Origin: Bacteroidia bacterium
Lineage (GTDB): Bacteria; Bacteroidota; Bacteroidia; Cytophagales; Cyclobacteriaceae
Direction: 5' to 3'
Assembly (NCBI GenBank): GCA_030425425.1
Contig: JAUIAO010000004.1
Location: forward strand, 124,001 to 188,000
Length of the DNA stretch: 64,000 nt
Shown here: piece after piece, positions 15,503 to 63,280 of the stretch
Numbering within the stretch: the first letter of the stretch is position 1
Layout: each line of letters opens with the position of its first letter
Position numbers and translations under genes: made by a program
The notes under the pieces: model-generated
Told to the model about the DNA's origin: nothing
What the model saw: the letters and a program-made list of their open reading frames with translations, nothing else
Databases searched by the model: none

Positions 15503-16132
15503 CTAATAAACCAGATTGTTTTCCTTCAAAAGTTCAGCAATCTGAACCGTGTTAGTAGCAGCGCCTTTTCTCAAGTTGTCAGACACGATCCATAGGTTCA
15601 ACGTGTTTGGCTGAGACTCATCTCGTCTGATTCTACCCACGAAAGTGTCGTCCTTTTTGTGAGCATTCATCGGCATAGGATAGATGTTGTTTTTCGGATC
15701 ATCTTCCAGCACCAAGCCCGGGCTATTCGCCAAAATGTCTTTTACTTCCTGCACGTCAAAATCTTTTTCGAACTCAATGTTCACAGACTCTGAGTGACCG
15801 CCCATCGTAGGGATACGCACGCAGGTAGCAGTCACCGCCACACTATCATCACCGAGGATTTTCTTGGTTTCGTTCACCATTTTCATCTCCTCTTTGGTGT
15901 AGTCATTGTCCAGGAACACATCGATATGAGGGAGCACGTTCATGTCGATTTTGTATGGATATGCCATCTCACCATCGATACCAGCCCGCTCATTCATTAT
16001 CTGACCAACCGCCTTTTTGCCCGATCCGGTTACTGACTGATAAGTGGAAACAACCACTCGTTTGATCGTATATTTTTTGTGCAATGGAGCCAATGCCAGC
16101 ACCATCTGGATAGTGGAGCAGTTCGGGTTGGC
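15503..16132 (-). pseudogene. Partial duplicate of asd (3' two thirds)
   Basis: This stretch aligns without gaps to residues 122-330 of the intact asd at 17051-18043; similarity stops abruptly at 16132/17680. The encoded protein differs at about 10 of 200 positions (for example KKAVGQIM against KKAVDQMM, and the last ten residues), and base differences cluster at the 3' end. The frame is still open and the catalytic Cys codon is kept, but there is no start codon or NADP-binding N-terminus, so it cannot make a working enzyme. It lies on the far side of the PIN/DUF6364 module from asd, like an attachment-site duplication. Confidence 0.9.
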
Positions 16133-16187
16133 CGTTTTTATAGTTAAAAAAGCAATGGGTTGAGTCTTACAGTTTTCAATGCAAATT

Positions 16188-16607
16188 TTACCCTTCGCTC
16201 ATATGCTTTGCCAGGTATTCTGAAGGGGTCATTACTGCTAATTCACTTGCTTTATAATCTTTGGTGTTTCGGGTAATGATGATTTCATGACCCGCATTTG
16301 TGGCGCAAAAATTTTGGACGGCATCCTCGAAATCGTTGAAAATAGAGTTTGAAGCACTAGAAATTTCCGTCTGACCTACATTCTCAATCGCAACAAGTTG
16401 CAACAGTTTTTTTACTTGACTTCTAGCCTTTGATTGGTTTTCTATTTTCCCGATGATATAATTAATACTGGTGATAGTAATAGGAGAGGCACATAGCTGG
16501 ACATTGGATGCTCTGGAAATAGTGATGACTTGTGCAATATCATCAGCAAAAGGTGCGCGATCCATTAATAAATCTAGCAGTACATCTGAATCCAGGTACA
16601 ATTTCAT
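16188..16607 (-). CDS. PIN-domain toxin (VapC-like RNase)
   Basis: 139 residues. PIN acidic residues are visible: Asp in LYLDSDVLLD at the N-terminus, the DFEDAVQ motif near residue 92, and ITRNTKDYK near 110-118. PIN toxins cleave RNA, often tRNA or rRNA, using Mg2+ held by these acids. It lies 84 bp downstream of a DUF6364 antitoxin gene, the usual order for this module type. The whole module sits between intact asd and a partial asd copy. No truncation is seen. Confidence 0.87.
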   Translation of the reverse strand: MKLYLDSDVLLDLLMDRAPFADDIAQVITISRASNVQLCASPITITSINYIIGKIENQSKARSQVKKLLQLVAIENVGQTEISSASNSIFNDFEDAVQNFCATNAGHEIIITRNTKDYKASELAVMTPSEYLAKHMSEG

Positions 16608-16691
16608 TTGTTAAATTTTGAGTAAAGGATTGGTTTCTACAATATCTAAACATACTTGAGAAAGTCCAGATTTGCTCAGGTCATGCTTGTT

Positions 16692-16949
16692 TCATTTTAG
16701 ATACTTTTCGAGCAAGGCATCTTTCAGCAAATCATCATATGAAGTGAAATCAGTAGGTAATTTAACTGAACCTCTGAGTTCGTTTACCAAATCGTCAGTA
16801 TCAGTAATTTTGTCATTTTTCTTTTTGCCAGATAGGGATTTCAAATACTCCTCAACAACCCGTGATAAACTTTTGCCTTGTTTCTTTGCATAGTCCTTAG
16901 CTTCTGCTATTACAGTTTCATTTACAGATAAAGTCAATTTTGTATTCAT
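16692..16949 (-). CDS. DUF6364-type antitoxin (ribbon-helix-helix)
   Basis: 85 residues. The N-terminus KLTLSVNETVIAEAKDYAKKQGKSLSRVVEEYLKSL has the ribbon-helix-helix pattern of a strand then two helices, and the Lys/Asp-rich C-terminus would wrap the PIN toxin. Such antitoxins bind their own promoter as dimers; two TACGTA hexamers overlap and precede the start codon (16949-16968). It is transcribed before the toxin on the minus strand. Confidence 0.85.
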   Translation of the reverse strand: MNTKLTLSVNETVIAEAKDYAKKQGKSLSRVVEEYLKSLSGKKKNDKITDTDDLVNELRGSVKLPTDFTSYDDLLKDALLEKYLK

Positions 16950-16968
16950 ACGTATAAATATTTACGTA
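16949..16968 (-). promoter_or_regulatory. Candidate operator of the PIN/DUF6364 module
   Basis: Two palindromic TACGTA hexamers (16949-16954 and 16963-16968) are spaced 14 bp centre to centre, immediately at the antitoxin start. Ribbon-helix-helix antitoxins typically bind such paired short sites. Motif inference only. Confidence 0.45.
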
Positions 16969-16993
16969 AAACTAAATATCAATTTGCAGAAAC

Positions 16994-17026
16994 AAAAAAG
17001 CGACCAACAGTTTCCCGCAGGTCGTT
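16994..17026 (-). terminator. Intrinsic terminator after asd
   Basis: On the minus strand ACGACC...GGTCGCT followed by TTTTTG, with the stem between 17001-17005 and 17020-17024. It closes asd about 25 bp after the stop codon. Confidence 0.7.
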
Positions 17027-17050
17027 TCATAAATTATTTATATCAACCGA

Positions 17051-18043
17051 TTAGTATACCAAACTATTCTCGATCATAAACTCAGCAATCTGAACCGTGT
17101 TGGTCGCGGCACCTTTTCTCAGGTTGTCTGACACGATCCAAAGGTTCAACGTGTTTGGCTGAGACTCATCTCGTCTGATTCTACCCACGAAAGTGTCGTC
17201 CTTTTTGTGAGCATTCATCGGCATAGGATAGATGTTGTTTTTCGGATCATCTTCCAACACCAAGCCCGGGCTATTCGCCAAAATGTCTTTCACCTCAGCA
17301 ACATCAAAGTCTTCTGCAAACTCAATATTCACAGACTCTGAGTGACCACCCATCGTTGGGATACGCACGCAGGTAGCAGTCACCGCCACACTATCATCAC
17401 CTAAGATTTTCTTGGTTTCGTTCACCATTTTCATTTCCTCTTTGGTGTAATCATTGTCCAGGAACACATCGATATGAGGGAGTACGTTCATGTCGATTAT
17501 GTATGGATATGCCATCTCACCATCGATACCAGCACGCTCATTCATCATTTGATCAACCGCTTTTTTGCCCGATCCGGTTACTGACTGATAGGTGGAAACT
17601 ACCACTCTTTTGATCGTATATTTTTTGTGCAATGGAGCCAATGCCAGCACCATCTGGATGGTGGAGCAGTTCGGGTTGGCAATGATTCTGTCATCAATTC
17701 TGAGTGCGTCACCATTTACCTCTGGCACAACCAGTTTTTTGGTCGGATCCATTCTCCAGGCAGACGAATTGTCGATGACCACTGTGCCTGCTTCAGCAAA
17801 TTTCGGTGCCCACTCCAATGAAGTACCACCACCAGCAGAGAACAATGCGATATCCGGCTTTTGGTTGACAGCATCCTGTAGGCCGATCACCTTGTAGGTT
17901 TTGCCCTTGAATGTCATTTCCTTACCCACAGAGCGCTCTGAAGCGACTAACAACAACTCATCGAACTGGAAATTTCTCTCCTCAATGACCTCTAACATTT
18001 CATGGCCTACCAAACCAGTAGCACCTACTACCGCAATCTTCAT
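17051..18043 (-). CDS. asd: Aspartate-semialdehyde dehydrogenase
   Basis: 330 residues, full length. NADP-binding GATGLVGHEM at residues 7-16; catalytic Cys126 in ANPNCSTIQ; MGGHSESVNIEF carries the conserved His region. It reduces aspartyl phosphate to aspartate semialdehyde for lysine/diaminopimelate, threonine and methionine synthesis in the cytoplasm. It is the intact member of a duplicated pair; residues 122-330 are repeated at 15503-16132 behind the TA module. If the cassette was integrated, the 3' part of this gene came with it. Confidence 0.96.
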   Translation of the reverse strand: MKIAVVGATGLVGHEMLEVIEERNFQFDELLLVASERSVGKEMTFKGKTYKVIGLQDAVNQKPDIALFSAGGGTSLEWAPKFAEAGTVVIDNSSAWRMDPTKKLVVPEVNGDALRIDDRIIANPNCSTIQMVLALAPLHKKYTIKRVVVSTYQSVTGSGKKAVDQMMNERAGIDGEMAYPYIIDMNVLPHIDVFLDNDYTKEEMKMVNETKKILGDDSVAVTATCVRIPTMGGHSESVNIEFAEDFDVAEVKDILANSPGLVLEDDPKNNIYPMPMNAHKKDDTFVGRIRRDESQPNTLNLWIVSDNLRKGAATNTVQIAEFMIENSLVY

Positions 18044-59289: not shown

Positions 59290-59307
59290 TAGTATGCATG
59301 CATACTA
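59290..59307. repeat. 18-bp perfect palindrome
   Basis: TAGTATGCATGCATACTA is self-complementary over 18 bp. It lies in the 561-bp gene-free stretch 59234-59794, 56 bp after the lipoprotein stop, near a sequence (AAAATTTAGGGCATAA at 59262-59277) almost repeated before the second pseudo-tRNA unit. Operator or recombination site; not assignable. Confidence 0.55.
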
Positions 59308-59404
59308 AATTCATCGCTTTTATTATGTTTGTGAATGAGGAGGCAAAACTGCTGAGTTCCCTCAGAAGTAAAATGAAGTTAAAAATCCAAACGTACGGAA
59401 GCAA

Positions 59405-59435
59405 CAACACCTGCCTTGAAAAAGGCAGGGTTTCT
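59405..59435. terminator. Hairpin in the gene-free stretch before tRNA-Phe
   Basis: CCTGCCTT and AAGGCAGG form an 8-bp stem (about 59410-59430) followed by GTTTCTG. Terminator-like in either direction; no gene owner is clear. Confidence 0.4.
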
Positions 59436-59537
59436 GTATCCCTGCCGGGGAGAATGACTGATCTGTTTGGACAGAAAAATGTCCCTTCATCGGTCAACTT
59501 CACCTTTTTGAAAAATCAGGTAATCAAGATTGAAGCT

Positions 59538-59645
59538 AAAAAACACAAAGCTTTTTCTAGTTCAGGCTTTACAAGTGCTGATGGGTTAGATCGCATCGAC
59601 GGAACGACCGACTCATGGGTTTTCAGTATTTCAGAAAAATTAGGG
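59538..59645 (-). repeat. Degenerate copy of tRNA-Phe 3' half plus terminator (unit 1)
   Basis: On the minus strand CTGAAAACCCATGAGTCGGT recalls the anticodon loop to variable region of the intact tRNA-Phe, followed by a decayed T-arm and CATCAGCACTTG, and a weakened terminator with AAAGCTTTGTG. The 5' half is missing. More diverged than unit 2. Confidence 0.65.
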
Positions 59646-59760
59646 CATAAAAAAACCCAAGCTTTTTCAAACTTGGGTTTTGGTGGTGCTGATGGATTCG
59701 ATCGGACCGACGTTTCGGCCACTGACACACGGATTTTCAAACTCCAAAAAAATATTGAGC
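59646..59760 (-). repeat. Degenerate copy of tRNA-Phe 3' half plus terminator (unit 2)
   Basis: On the minus strand TTTGAAAATCCGTGTGTCAG matches the anticodon arm of tRNA-Phe, then a decayed T-arm, CATCAGCACCACCA (acceptor end with CCA) and the stem AACCCAAG...CTTGGGTT with T7. The 5' half is missing. Together with unit 1 it forms a ~113-bp tandem series ending at the real tRNA. Confidence 0.8.
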
Positions 59761-59762
59761 AT

Positions 59763-59794
59763 AAAAAAACCCGAACTTTTTCAAGATCGGGTTT
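59763..59794 (-). terminator. tRNA-Phe terminator
   Basis: On the minus strand AACCCGA and TTCGGGTT form a stem followed by TTTTT, starting directly after the tRNA CCA end. Confidence 0.85.
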
Positions 59795-59870
59795 TGGTGG
59801 TGCTGAGTGGATTCGAACCACCGACTCACGGATTTTCAGTCCGATGCTCTACCAACTGAGCTACAGCACC
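59795..59870 (-). tRNA. tRNA-Phe (GAA)
   Basis: 76 nt with encoded CCA. The minus strand starts GGTGCTGTAGCTCAGTTGGT, has an anticodon arm CGGACTGAAAATCCG with anticodon GAA, T-loop GGTTCGAATCC and acceptor CAGCACC plus A and CCA. All four stems pair. Two degenerate 3'-half copies follow downstream. Confidence 0.97.
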
Positions 59871-59955
59871 GATTAAGGAGGTGCAAAACTAGAAATTCTT
59901 TTGAATCGAGCAAAAAATATTTAATAAATAATAAACTGACATTAACCTAAAAACT

Positions 59956-61328: not shown

Positions 61329-62129
61329 ATGACTAACGATAATATACAAATCCCAACAGTGGCCGAAATGGCTGCCAAAGGTGAAGCACCAGAAATACTT
61401 TTTTGGGTTGGGTGCGCAGGATCTTTCGATGATCGATATAAGGCTGTGACCAAAGCTTTTGTACAAATTTTAAATAATGTAGGAATCAAATTTGCTGTAT
61501 TGGGCCCGGAAGAAACCTGTACTGGTGATCCAGCCCGTCGGGCAGGAAATGAATTCCTTTACCAGATGCAGGCGATGGCCAATATTCAGGTTTTGGATGG
61601 CTATGGCATCACTAAAATTGTGACTGCTTGTCCGCATTGTTTCAATACTCTGAAAAATGAGTATCCAGAATTGGGAGGAAACTACGAAGTGATTCACCAC
61701 TCTGAATTGCTCCAGCAGCTCATCAACGACGGGAAGGTAGGCCTGAAAGAAGGCGGCACTTTCAAAGGCAGAAAAATCACTTATCACGATTCGTGTTTCC
61801 TTGGTAGAGCCAACAATGTGTATGAAGCTCCAAGAAAAGTTTTGGAAGTATTGGATGCAGAGTTGGTAGAAATGAAGCGCTGCAAAACCAATGGCCTGTG
61901 CTGTGGAGCTGGCGGAGCTCAGATGTTTAAAGATGCAGAGCCGGGTAAAAAAGAAATAAATGTAGAGCGAACCGAAGAAGCATTGGGAACCGGAGCAGAT
62001 ACCATCGCTGTAGGATGTCCATTCTGCATGACTATGATGGCTGATGGAGTGAAAAACAAGGAAAAAGAAGCGGATGTAAAAGTTAAAGATTTGGCAGAAC
62101 TAATCGCCGAGGCAGAGGGTTTGTTATAG
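61329..62129 (+). CDS. CCG-domain Fe-S oxidoreductase subunit (HdrB/GlpC-like)
   Basis: 266 residues. Two cysteine-rich CCG-type modules: WVGCAGSFDDR...TACPHCFNTL (first) and DSCFLGRANNVYE...LCCGAGGAQMF, then GCPFCMTMM. The motifs fit heterodisulfide-reductase-type or lactate-oxidase-type Fe-S subunits. The last 47 bp with the stop, plus one base, recur perfectly at 62713-62760 behind a two-gene cassette. Confidence 0.9.
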   Translation: MTNDNIQIPTVAEMAAKGEAPEILFWVGCAGSFDDRYKAVTKAFVQILNNVGIKFAVLGPEETCTGDPARRAGNEFLYQMQAMANIQVLDGYGITKIVTACPHCFNTLKNEYPELGGNYEVIHHSELLQQLINDGKVGLKEGGTFKGRKITYHDSCFLGRANNVYEAPRKVLEVLDAELVEMKRCKTNGLCCGAGGAQMFKDAEPGKKEINVERTEEALGTGADTIAVGCPFCMTMMADGVKNKEKEADVKVKDLAELIAEAEGLL

Positions 62130-62130
62130 T
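62083..62130 (+). repeat. 48-bp direct repeat, copy 1 (end of the Fe-S gene)
   Basis: Perfect 48-bp match to 62713-62760, covering the last codons and TAG stop of the Fe-S gene. It flanks the DUF2442/DUF4160 cassette on the gene side; the two copies are 630 bp apart. Confidence 0.97.
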
Positions 62131-62134
62131 CTAT

Positions 62135-62172
62135 AAAATGGGACAGGATGAATCAAAGTTCTGTCCCATTTT
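62135..62172. terminator. Bidirectional hairpin between Fe-S gene and DUF2442
   Basis: AAAATGGGACAG (62135-62146) and CTGTCCCATTTT (62161-62172) form a perfect 12-bp stem with a 14-nt loop. The arms supply A and T runs on both strands, so it can end transcription from either side. The right arm lies inside the DUF2442 gene's last codons. Confidence 0.8.
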
Positions 62173-62389
62173 CATATAAAAACTCCGGATCGAGATCTGC
62201 TTCATTATCCCATGCTATCGTATCAAAGCTAACCTTGACGGAATTGAATAAGTCTGGATCTTTTAACTCACGAAAAATGCCTGTTTCAAGATATGGCATC
62301 ATATCAAAAATTTTCTTCACTCCATTTTCAAAAGTCAGGAGTAATTGATAATCAGGGCGTGTTTCTACGTCTTTTACAGCTAGGTACAT
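62153..62389 (-). CDS. DUF2442 protein, second gene of the cassette
   Basis: 78 residues: YLAVKDVETRPDYQLLLTFENGVKKIFDMMPYLETGIFRELKDPDLFNSVKVSFDTIAWDNEADLDPEFLYENG, the DUF2442 pattern ending in the conserved W-x-x-x-x-D-L-x-P-E-x-L. Often paired with DUF4160; a TA-like role is suspected for such pairs but not established. Four bp after DUF4160. Confidence 0.88.
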   Translation of the reverse strand: MYLAVKDVETRPDYQLLLTFENGVKKIFDMMPYLETGIFRELKDPDLFNSVKVSFDTIAWDNEADLDPEFLYENGTEL

Positions 62390-62393
62390 AATA

Positions 62394-62660
62394 TCATTTT
62401 AACGGATCAATTTTAAAAGGTTTTTCACCATTTTGGCAGAGTTCCCAATCTGCTATCAATTCTTCTTTATGGATTTCTATCCAAGCTTCAACCATTTTGG
62501 TTTGTTTTCTTGGAAACTCTCCAACCAGCAACTCTCCACTTTCAATCCCAAAAGTAGCCGTGAAATCTTGGTAGTAGACATGAATATGAGGCGGGTTATG
62601 CTCTTTGGGACCAAAGTACATTCTGATGATAATCCCGAAAAACATTGATATCGTAGGCAT
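62394..62660 (-). CDS. DUF4160 protein, first gene of the cassette
   Basis: 88 residues from ATG 62660 (MPTISMFFGIIIRMYFGPKEHNPPHIHVYY); the longer MLKCCQ lead is unlikely. EHNPPHIHVYY and RKQTKMVEAWIEIHKEELIADWELCQNG are diagnostic of DUF4160. It lies inside a 630-bp insertion flanked by 48-bp direct repeats, so this pair was probably acquired recently. Confidence 0.9.
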   Translation of the reverse strand: MPTISMFFGIIIRMYFGPKEHNPPHIHVYYQDFTATFGIESGELLVGEFPRKQTKMVEAWIEIHKEELIADWELCQNGEKPFKIDPLK

Positions 62661-62712
62661 TTGACAACATTTTAACATTCAAAAAGTAGTGGAAAAATAA
62701 TAAGAAAATAAC

Positions 62713-62760
62713 TTAAAGATTTGGCAGAACTAATCGCCGAGGCAGAGGGTTTGTTATAGT
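62713..62760 (+). repeat. 48-bp direct repeat, copy 2 (far side of cassette)
   Basis: Perfect copy of the 3' end of the Fe-S gene, now detached from it and lying upstream of the 163-residue gene at 62789. Marks the right boundary of the inserted cassette. Confidence 0.97.
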
Positions 62761-62788
62761 TAACAAACAAGATTGCTAAATTTGACTT

Positions 62789-63280
62789 ATGATAACATCA
62801 ATTGTAGAAATGCCGGATCAGGCGAAAGTTTGGGTTTATCAGGCCAATAGACCTTTTTCTGACTCTGAAAGAATCCTTATAGAAAAAAACCTTGAAGCGT
62901 TTTGTGGACAGTGGGCTGCTCATGGGAAGCAGCTCACCAGCACATACAGCATCGAAAAAAATCAATTCATCATCCTTGCAGTTGATGAGTCTGGTCATCA
63001 GGCAAGCGGATGCAGCATAGACTCATCTGTACATTTTATCCAGCAAATAGAGCAAGCAACTGGTCTCAGTTTGCTAGACAAATCTCAAGTGGCTTTTGAA
63101 ACAGAAGAAGGGATTATTATCAAACCTTTCAATAAACTGAAAGAAGCTGTCACCACTGGTGAGATTAAACCAGACACGATAGTTTTCAACAATGCAATAC
63201 AAAATGCAGCAGAATGGAAAAGTAGCTGGGCAATTCCGGCTAATCAGTCATGGCTTAAGCGTTTTTTCTCAGTGAATTAA
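62789..63280 (+). CDS. Conserved protein often labelled ABC transporter ATPase
   Basis: 163 residues. No Walker A or signature motif, so the common label is misleading. ANRPFSDSERILIEKNLEAFCGQWAAHGKQLTSTY and IIILAVDESGHQASGCSIDSSVHFIQQIE form the conserved core of this Bacteroidota family, which follows the Fe-S pair in related genomes. The 48-bp repeat and cassette now separate it from them. Function unknown. Confidence 0.75.
   Translation: MITSIVEMPDQAKVWVYQANRPFSDSERILIEKNLEAFCGQWAAHGKQLTSTYSIEKNQFIILAVDESGHQASGCSIDSSVHFIQQIEQATGLSLLDKSQVAFETEEGIIIKPFNKLKEAVTTGEIKPDTIVFNNAIQNAAEWKSSWAIPANQSWLKRFFSVN

Follow-up and report, generated by a model that had tools for sequence, protein, structure and literature searches.

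Comparison with related genomes supports a lineage-specific insertion of a putative toxin-antitoxin module behind a gene for an Fe-S protein, with duplication of the 3′ end of that host gene. We consider it probable that this DhiTA-like module was inserted 3′ of the Fe-S gene, with a 48-bp target duplication, by break repair that used no dedicated recombinase. The window, meaning the whole 64,000-nucleotide stretch of DNA that was analysed, carries the following features at this locus.

61329..62129, + strand: host gene, intact, encoding an Fe-S (cysteine-rich CCG domain) protein of 266 aa (open reading frame; Pfam CCG, 105 bits)
62083..62130, + strand: copy 1 of the repeat, the host gene 3′ end with stop codon plus one base (repeat comparison)
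62131..62712, no strand: inserted segment, 582 bp (orthologous site without the segment in 5/5 congeners)
62135..62172, no strand: hairpin, overlapping the 3′ end of the DUF2442 gene (RNA fold −21.1 kcal/mol, z −5.97)
62153..62389, − strand: DUF2442 gene, DhiA-like putative antitoxin, 78 aa (Pfam PF10387, 54.4 bits, cut-off 23.9)
62394..62660, − strand: DUF4160 gene, DhiT-like putative toxin, 88 aa from an MPT start (Pfam PF13711, 87.8 bits, cut-off 23)
62713..62760, + strand: copy 2 of the repeat, a gene-end remnant (repeat comparison)
62749..62768, no strand: palindrome GTTTGTTA-TAGT-TAACAAAC, spanning the right edge of copy 2 (congener alignment)
62789..63280, + strand: ancestral downstream neighbour gene, 163 aa (homologous DNA directly 3′ of the Fe-S gene in 5/5 congeners)

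The two copies of the repeat (TTAAAGATTTGG...TTATAGT in both) are identical at 48/48 positions and lie 630 bp apart, start to start. Copy 1 is made up of the final 47 nt of the Fe-S gene and one further base. A preliminary description of this DNA had reported a perfect repeat of this kind, enclosing 582 bp with only two small genes and a hairpin. The coordinates and the identity were confirmed, and the two genes and the hairpin were found as claimed. By length, the repeat ranks third among exact direct repeats of at least 18 bp in the 64-kb window. All remaining exact repeats of at least 25 bp lie within a tandem duplication at 15.5–17.7 kb (15534-17680; spacing 1548 bp, exact repeats of at most 115 bp). 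Chance gave no exact repeat longer than 15 bp when the 4-kb region was simulated 200 times with a first-order Markov model. Elsewhere in the window, the 3′ half of a tRNA-Phe gene (59795-59870, − strand) and the terminator after it recur behind the gene as two degenerate tandem copies, at about 59645-59740 and at 59540-59627. Both are cargo-free, the copy at 59540-59627 is much decayed, and an open reading frame that runs across them (59298-59876) is probably spurious.

The insertion site is empty in all five congeners, which are other species and not strains. In each, a homologue of the gene at 62789, whose product matched no Pfam family, comes immediately after the Fe-S gene, and a DUF4160 search at E 1e-5 gave no match in any of them. 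When the window flanks are joined and compared with each congener, the two are colinear with a single repeat copy. The preliminary description expected an empty site to run from the Fe-S stop codon straight into the sequence at 62761. The empty sites and the adjacent neighbour gene agree with this in 5/5 congeners, but the joined flanks do not equal the congener sequence exactly. The window carries a further 17 nucleotides (62753-62769) at the right-hand border of copy 2 that all five lack. The palindrome, with arms of 8 bp, lies mostly inside this stretch; the DNA fold of the region gives a z of −2.05, and 10/200 shuffles fold equally well. The 17-nt palindromic stretch may predate the insertion or may be its scar. 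The motif AGTTAA is present at both edges of the repeat unit in the joined site. There is no difference between the two window copies, but every congener departs from them at 6-9/40 positions; the lineage's own gene is therefore the most likely source of the second copy. Of the earlier reading as a recent 3′-end-targeted insertion, the lineage-specific insertion with gene-end duplication stands, and targeting of the 3′ end is unproven.

Judged from their protein sequences, the inserted genes would form a DhiTA-like type II toxin-antitoxin module with a putative toxin and a putative antitoxin. The DUF4160 gene lies directly upstream of the DUF2442 gene on the same strand with a 4-nt gap, and both products score above the Pfam cut-offs. 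The DUF4160 reading frame is open to 62678. This listed start is probably six codons early, since two close homologues begin at MPT in the alignment. Against the NCBIfam model toxin_DhiT the window protein scores 84.8 bits, below the cut-off of 100, and it is therefore termed DhiT-like, related but no equivalog. DUF4160 precedes DUF2442 in 171/208 DUF4160 hits (duplicates included); 30 have no detected partner and seven show the reverse order. The hairpin at 62135-62172 is likely a bidirectional terminator that would end transcription from both sides.

DUF4160 and DUF2442 are described in passages of two reports as an experimentally supported toxin-antitoxin pair, with DUF4160 toxicity relieved by DUF2442 in relatives (PMC8198452, PMC12724237). 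According to the first, dhiT overexpression retards the growth of Dickeya dadantii and E. coli, and the DhiTA complex reduces the activity of its own promoter (PMC8198452). According to the second, the PEM pair of Thermus plasmids increased plasmid persistence; introduction of a plasmid succeeded when the first gene was missing but not when the second was (PMC12724237). The window pair resembles DhiTA of Dickeya dadantii (PMC8198452) and PEM of Thermus plasmids (PMC12724237), as these passages present them, in its domain pair, its gene order from toxin to antitoxin and its similar size. It differs from DhiTA in that its DUF4160 protein falls below the NCBIfam DhiT cut-off. These passages of both reports give no account of how the module inserts (PMC8198452, PMC12724237).

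We turn to other DUF4160 units. The sample comprised 80 loci from named genomes together with loci of the same taxonomic order, where DUF4160 occurs in 98/390 genomes. It held 170 distinct units, of which 166 were kept and four dropped for short flanks. A unit was scored as flanked if a direct repeat common to the 500-bp flanks outside it reached a blastn score of at least 28. Such a repeat was found at 18/166 units including the window (17/165 without it), compared with 8/544 control positions at the same loci (Fisher p 5e-7), 2/274 large-gene controls (p 1e-6) and 16/351 other small genes, the latter from 10 loci (p 0.012); the p values come out too low, since each of several related loci enters the count by itself. 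Two earlier tests gave exact repeats of at least 16 bp at 12/80 loci versus 24/637 random positions and, by local alignment, repeats at 14/78 loci including the window versus 4/138 controls, all four from one locus. The three dinB loci (L212, L216, L222) are probably one event, as are the three FAD-oxidoreductase loci (L196, L197, L199), at which no DUF2442 partner was detected. The 18 units thus represent about 14 independent cases.

At seven of these roughly 14 cases the repeat is a copy of the 3′ part of the adjacent gene. The hosts are the Fe-S gene of the window, hisD (L211), a class-III aminotransferase gene (L077), an HGSNAT-like gene (L080), dinB, a PALP enzyme gene (L219) and a FAD oxidoreductase gene. 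The preliminary description had proposed a search for pairs bounded by the 3′ ends of other genes, and DUF4160 units of this kind do occur at unrelated genes. Beside the 48 bp of the window, the repeats in the other gene-end cases are 28 to 245 bp long and some have diverged; the hisD repeat is 44 bp (44/44 identical) and the aminotransferase repeat 28 bp. A copy of a PhoH gene end (L118, 26 bp) falls just under the threshold. The hisD locus provides a second pair of occupied and empty sites: genome G267 is occupied, and its congener G135 is colinear with a single copy. The host genes of the repeat-flanked units are mutually unrelated.

The other seven cases are mixed. Three lie in repeat-rich or array-like regions (L041, L134, L075), one is a probable promoter copy (L110), one is a gene 5′ end by eye (L167) and two have no clear type (L239, L104). 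Repeats resembling promoter regions occur at L110, L082 and L095. At L134 and L075 the DUF4160 pair sits between repeats that by eye resemble integron-type or other array repeats, and the module may also travel as array cargo.

Most units have no scored repeat: 148/166 are below the threshold. A second pair in the genome of the window (C86) has no flanking repeat; of the two closest relatives, one is without a repeat (L040) and one is inside a repeat-rich region (L041). Cassettes without repeats had been named in advance as evidence against the insertion reading. They are common, the C86 pair included, which argues against the repeats being an obligatory part of the cassette; it does not argue against the event in the window.

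Loci of other toxin families behave alike. For HicA and ParE the flanks were taken 850 bp from the toxin match within the same order, and 1/50 HicA and 1/70 ParE loci were dropped for short flanks. Flanking repeats were found at 5/49 HicA and 5/69 ParE loci. By the same 850-bp test DUF4160 gave 20/160, not different from the combined 10/118 (p 0.33), and the pattern is therefore not specific to DUF4160. Two loci have a clear gene-end copy: at L365 a HicA pair separates the 3′ end of a DNA polymerase I gene from a 152-bp copy of 91% identity, and at L345 a ParE pair separates that of a HipA_C gene from a 44-bp copy of 95% identity. The remaining matches among the ten include a tandem toxin-antitoxin duplication (L289), terminator-like repeats (L269, L286) and others without a clear type; L257 and L348 fall in one region. 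The excess among other small genes (16/351) suggests that the pattern is not specific to toxin-antitoxin pairs either. Four small open reading frames of the control set are flanked by direct repeats of 71–120 bp (L074, 982-1371; L077, 8961-9425; L079, 6441-6831; L085, 4035-4328) and may be further insertions of a like kind.

A different aspect of the pattern is seen at dinB in genus g55. The dinB locus was used as a query over 60 genomes and the fetched loci were aligned. G319 (L408) has four occurrences of the dinB 3′ end and G437 (L409) has three, while G390 (L410) and G331 (L388) have one extra copy each. The cargo between the copies differs: DUF4221 proteins, small proteins that belong to no Pfam family and a toxin-antitoxin remnant. 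The extra copies end near the stop codon and begin at 39-40, 101-113, 130 or 143 of the 211-nt query. In four species the copy adjoining the toxin-antitoxin pair begins at 39-40, and because this start is identical the insertion beside that pair is probably common to the four. Two copies in L408 begin at 113 and are preceded by nearly identical stretches of 40 nt; with start and preceding sequence alike, they may reflect one event followed by duplication. In a dinB tree of low resolution (150 bp) the distal copies fall inside the genus, and the distal copy of L216 is closest to the intact gene of another species. In L408 and L388 a hairpin lies directly 3′ of the intact dinB by eye, like that in the window. 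Nothing argues more strongly for a targeted mechanism than this repeated use of the dinB end, which is unlike what blind insertion predicts. Recombination among existing copies could also have built the dinB arrays.

The insert, with two genes and a hairpin, is not carried by a known mobile element as far as the insert and the 10 proteins scanned from 46-61 kb of the window go. No recombinase or transposase domain was found in either, which bears out the preliminary description's remark that no recombinase was seen. No recombinase domain was found among eight scanned proteins of the dinB arrays, five of which are without a Pfam family. The target ends show no common core by eye. Known carriers were also considered. 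By eye, against the attC consensus, the insert has no attC-like site and its hairpin at 62135-62172 is unlike attC; array-type repeats such as those beside the pair at L134 and L075 were not seen here, and an integron cassette appears less likely on this view. A transposon was rejected, as no short terminal inverted repeats were noted by eye and the insert has no transposase. A phage origin was set aside too, with only distant DUF4160 relatives in six phage records (all <60% identity). DUF4160 matches occur in 32 plasmid records, with DNA similarity of 60-80% at best, in three of them; plasmid carriage is a possible source of the module. No Ku match was found in the genome of the window or in seven other searched genomes with such insertions or arrays. 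Altogether no Ku match was found in 10/14 searched genomes (G000, G002, G135, G234, G267, G272, G319, G349, G358, G437), and the four with matches are all congeners of the window. Ku-dependent end joining is therefore unsupported and, being unnecessary as well, is not favoured.

Unrelated hosts, no visible core, no recombinase among the scanned proteins and no Ku match together lead us to favour a break-and-copy process that is independent of sequence. A break would form at the target. Repair of the replication or fill-in type would then capture the module without a dedicated recombinase, and would copy the stretch between two strand breaks so that the target is directly duplicated. Template switching during replication and fill-in of a staggered break are candidate processes. 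Insertions would be retained when duplication keeps the host gene complete, and perhaps also since a toxin-antitoxin pair punishes its own loss. Under break repair, the bias toward gene ends would be a matter of selection, with insertions that disrupt the gene being lost. The appearance of 3′-end targeting may thus be survivorship, with the dinB hot spot arguing for targeting; the promoter-like repeats (L110, L082, L095), the 5′-end repeat (L167) and the unrelated hosts disfavour targeting, which stays unproven. Both flanks could also have arisen in two steps. The repeat, the empty sites, the likeness of the copies and the recurrence are direct observations within this reading, and it is the break repair that we infer.

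A tyrosine-type recombinase acting in trans is the first alternative. It would insert a small circle, and the 48 bp would be an attachment site that brings a replacement gene end. A duplicated 3′ end beside a restored host gene is the classical architecture of integration at tRNA genes and gene ends, and serial accretion at the dinB end (four copies in L408, three in L409) with few start positions fits it. We nevertheless regard it as unlikely, given target ends with no common sequence by eye, one DUF4160 family at many unrelated targets, and the absence of a recombinase from the insert, the 10 window proteins and the eight dinB-array proteins. Furthermore, at L077 and L345 the sequence after the repeat diverges between the copies ahead of the stop codon. 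The intact gene there seems to take its final codons from the insert, with no empty site for comparison, so that the inserts seem to replace and not restore the gene end. This is as expected of blind duplication; a purpose-built replacement end would not need insert-derived codons. Homologous recombination, in which a circle already joining the module to a piece of the gene end integrates by a single crossover to leave two copies, predicts exactly the observed structure. Repeats of about 26-245 bp are long enough for it, and the distal dinB copies of g55 with L216 make spread of an existing module at the same gene plausible. It requires, however, a source with the module and the very same gene end already joined. 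The window copies are identical and unlike the congeners, so only a different strain of this species could have served as the source, and that shifts the question elsewhere. We think such a crossover a poor prospect as the origin, and a weaker one than the recombinase.

A sequence of two steps, with a short tandem duplication of the gene end first and insertion of the module at the unit junction later, seems improbable to us. AGTTAA at both unit edges is what slippage predicts, and the cargo-free degenerate copies behind tRNA-Phe, about 2 kb away, show tandem 3′-end duplication nearby. But the module would have to land exactly at the junction, and to do so independently again at hisD, dinB and other genes. 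An assembly artefact or a chance repeat is scarcely credible. The genome is a draft in 121 contigs and the locus lies about 4 kb from a contig end, yet it is inside one contig of 190,416 bases, the simulated chance repeats stop at 15 bp, and the pattern recurs in many independent assemblies. On a wider scale, a possibility to which we give a low probability is that a general process of cassette insertion, driven by some enzyme or by repair during replication, operates in Bacteroidota (and others). It would repeatedly add small cargo, such as toxin-antitoxin pairs, behind genes with a fresh 3′-end copy each time, and arrays would grow at hot spots such as dinB.

Two known kinds of insertion invite comparison with the favoured break repair. 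Elements with tyrosine recombinases integrate into the 3′ ends of tRNA or other genes and restore the host gene. The present cases share with them the duplicated 3′ end, the intact host gene and, in the dinB arrays, serial accretion. They differ in having no recombinase in the scanned proteins, no common core seen and a variable repeat length, and in an insert that at times seems to supply a new stop codon.

For restriction-modification genes, Nobusato et al. in 2000 and Furuta et al. in 2010 reportedly described insertion with long target duplication. According to a passage of another paper, such insertion was described for restriction-modification genes in Helicobacter pylori (PMC1643837). 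By the cited passages, the likeness lies in a small addiction-type unit without a known mobile element, set between long direct copies of the target (PMC3031569, PMC1643837), and in detection by comparison of related genomes, which in our case too gives occupied and empty alleles (Fe-S, hisD). The duplication is also long and variable, of the order of 100 bp there and 48 bp here. The cargo here is a toxin-antitoxin pair of about 0.5 kb and no restriction-modification unit, which makes this a variant and no member in the narrow sense. The hosts are mainly Bacteroidota, with about 14 independent DUF4160 cases and dinB arrays of mixed cargo, a further difference from the restriction-modification insertions. 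A passage of a 2009 review states, citing Nobusato, that restriction-modification and toxin-antitoxin systems share addiction and apparent mobility (PMC2654758). No report of long target duplication at toxin-antitoxin modules was found in the open-access literature searched. A known arrangement, insertion with long target duplication, is now seen with a different addiction module.

The finding bears on how chromosomal toxin-antitoxin modules come to enter genomes when no mobile element is visible. Recent events are marked by the repeats, the target gene survives in them, and the two copies amount to a built-in path for excision. The dinB arrays offer a natural series of successive events within one genus. 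Should toxin-antitoxin modules insert in the manner of restriction-modification genes, with long duplications of the target, both kinds of addiction module would spread by a common route. The similar arrangements at other genes suggest that this is a recurrent entry route for such gene pairs.
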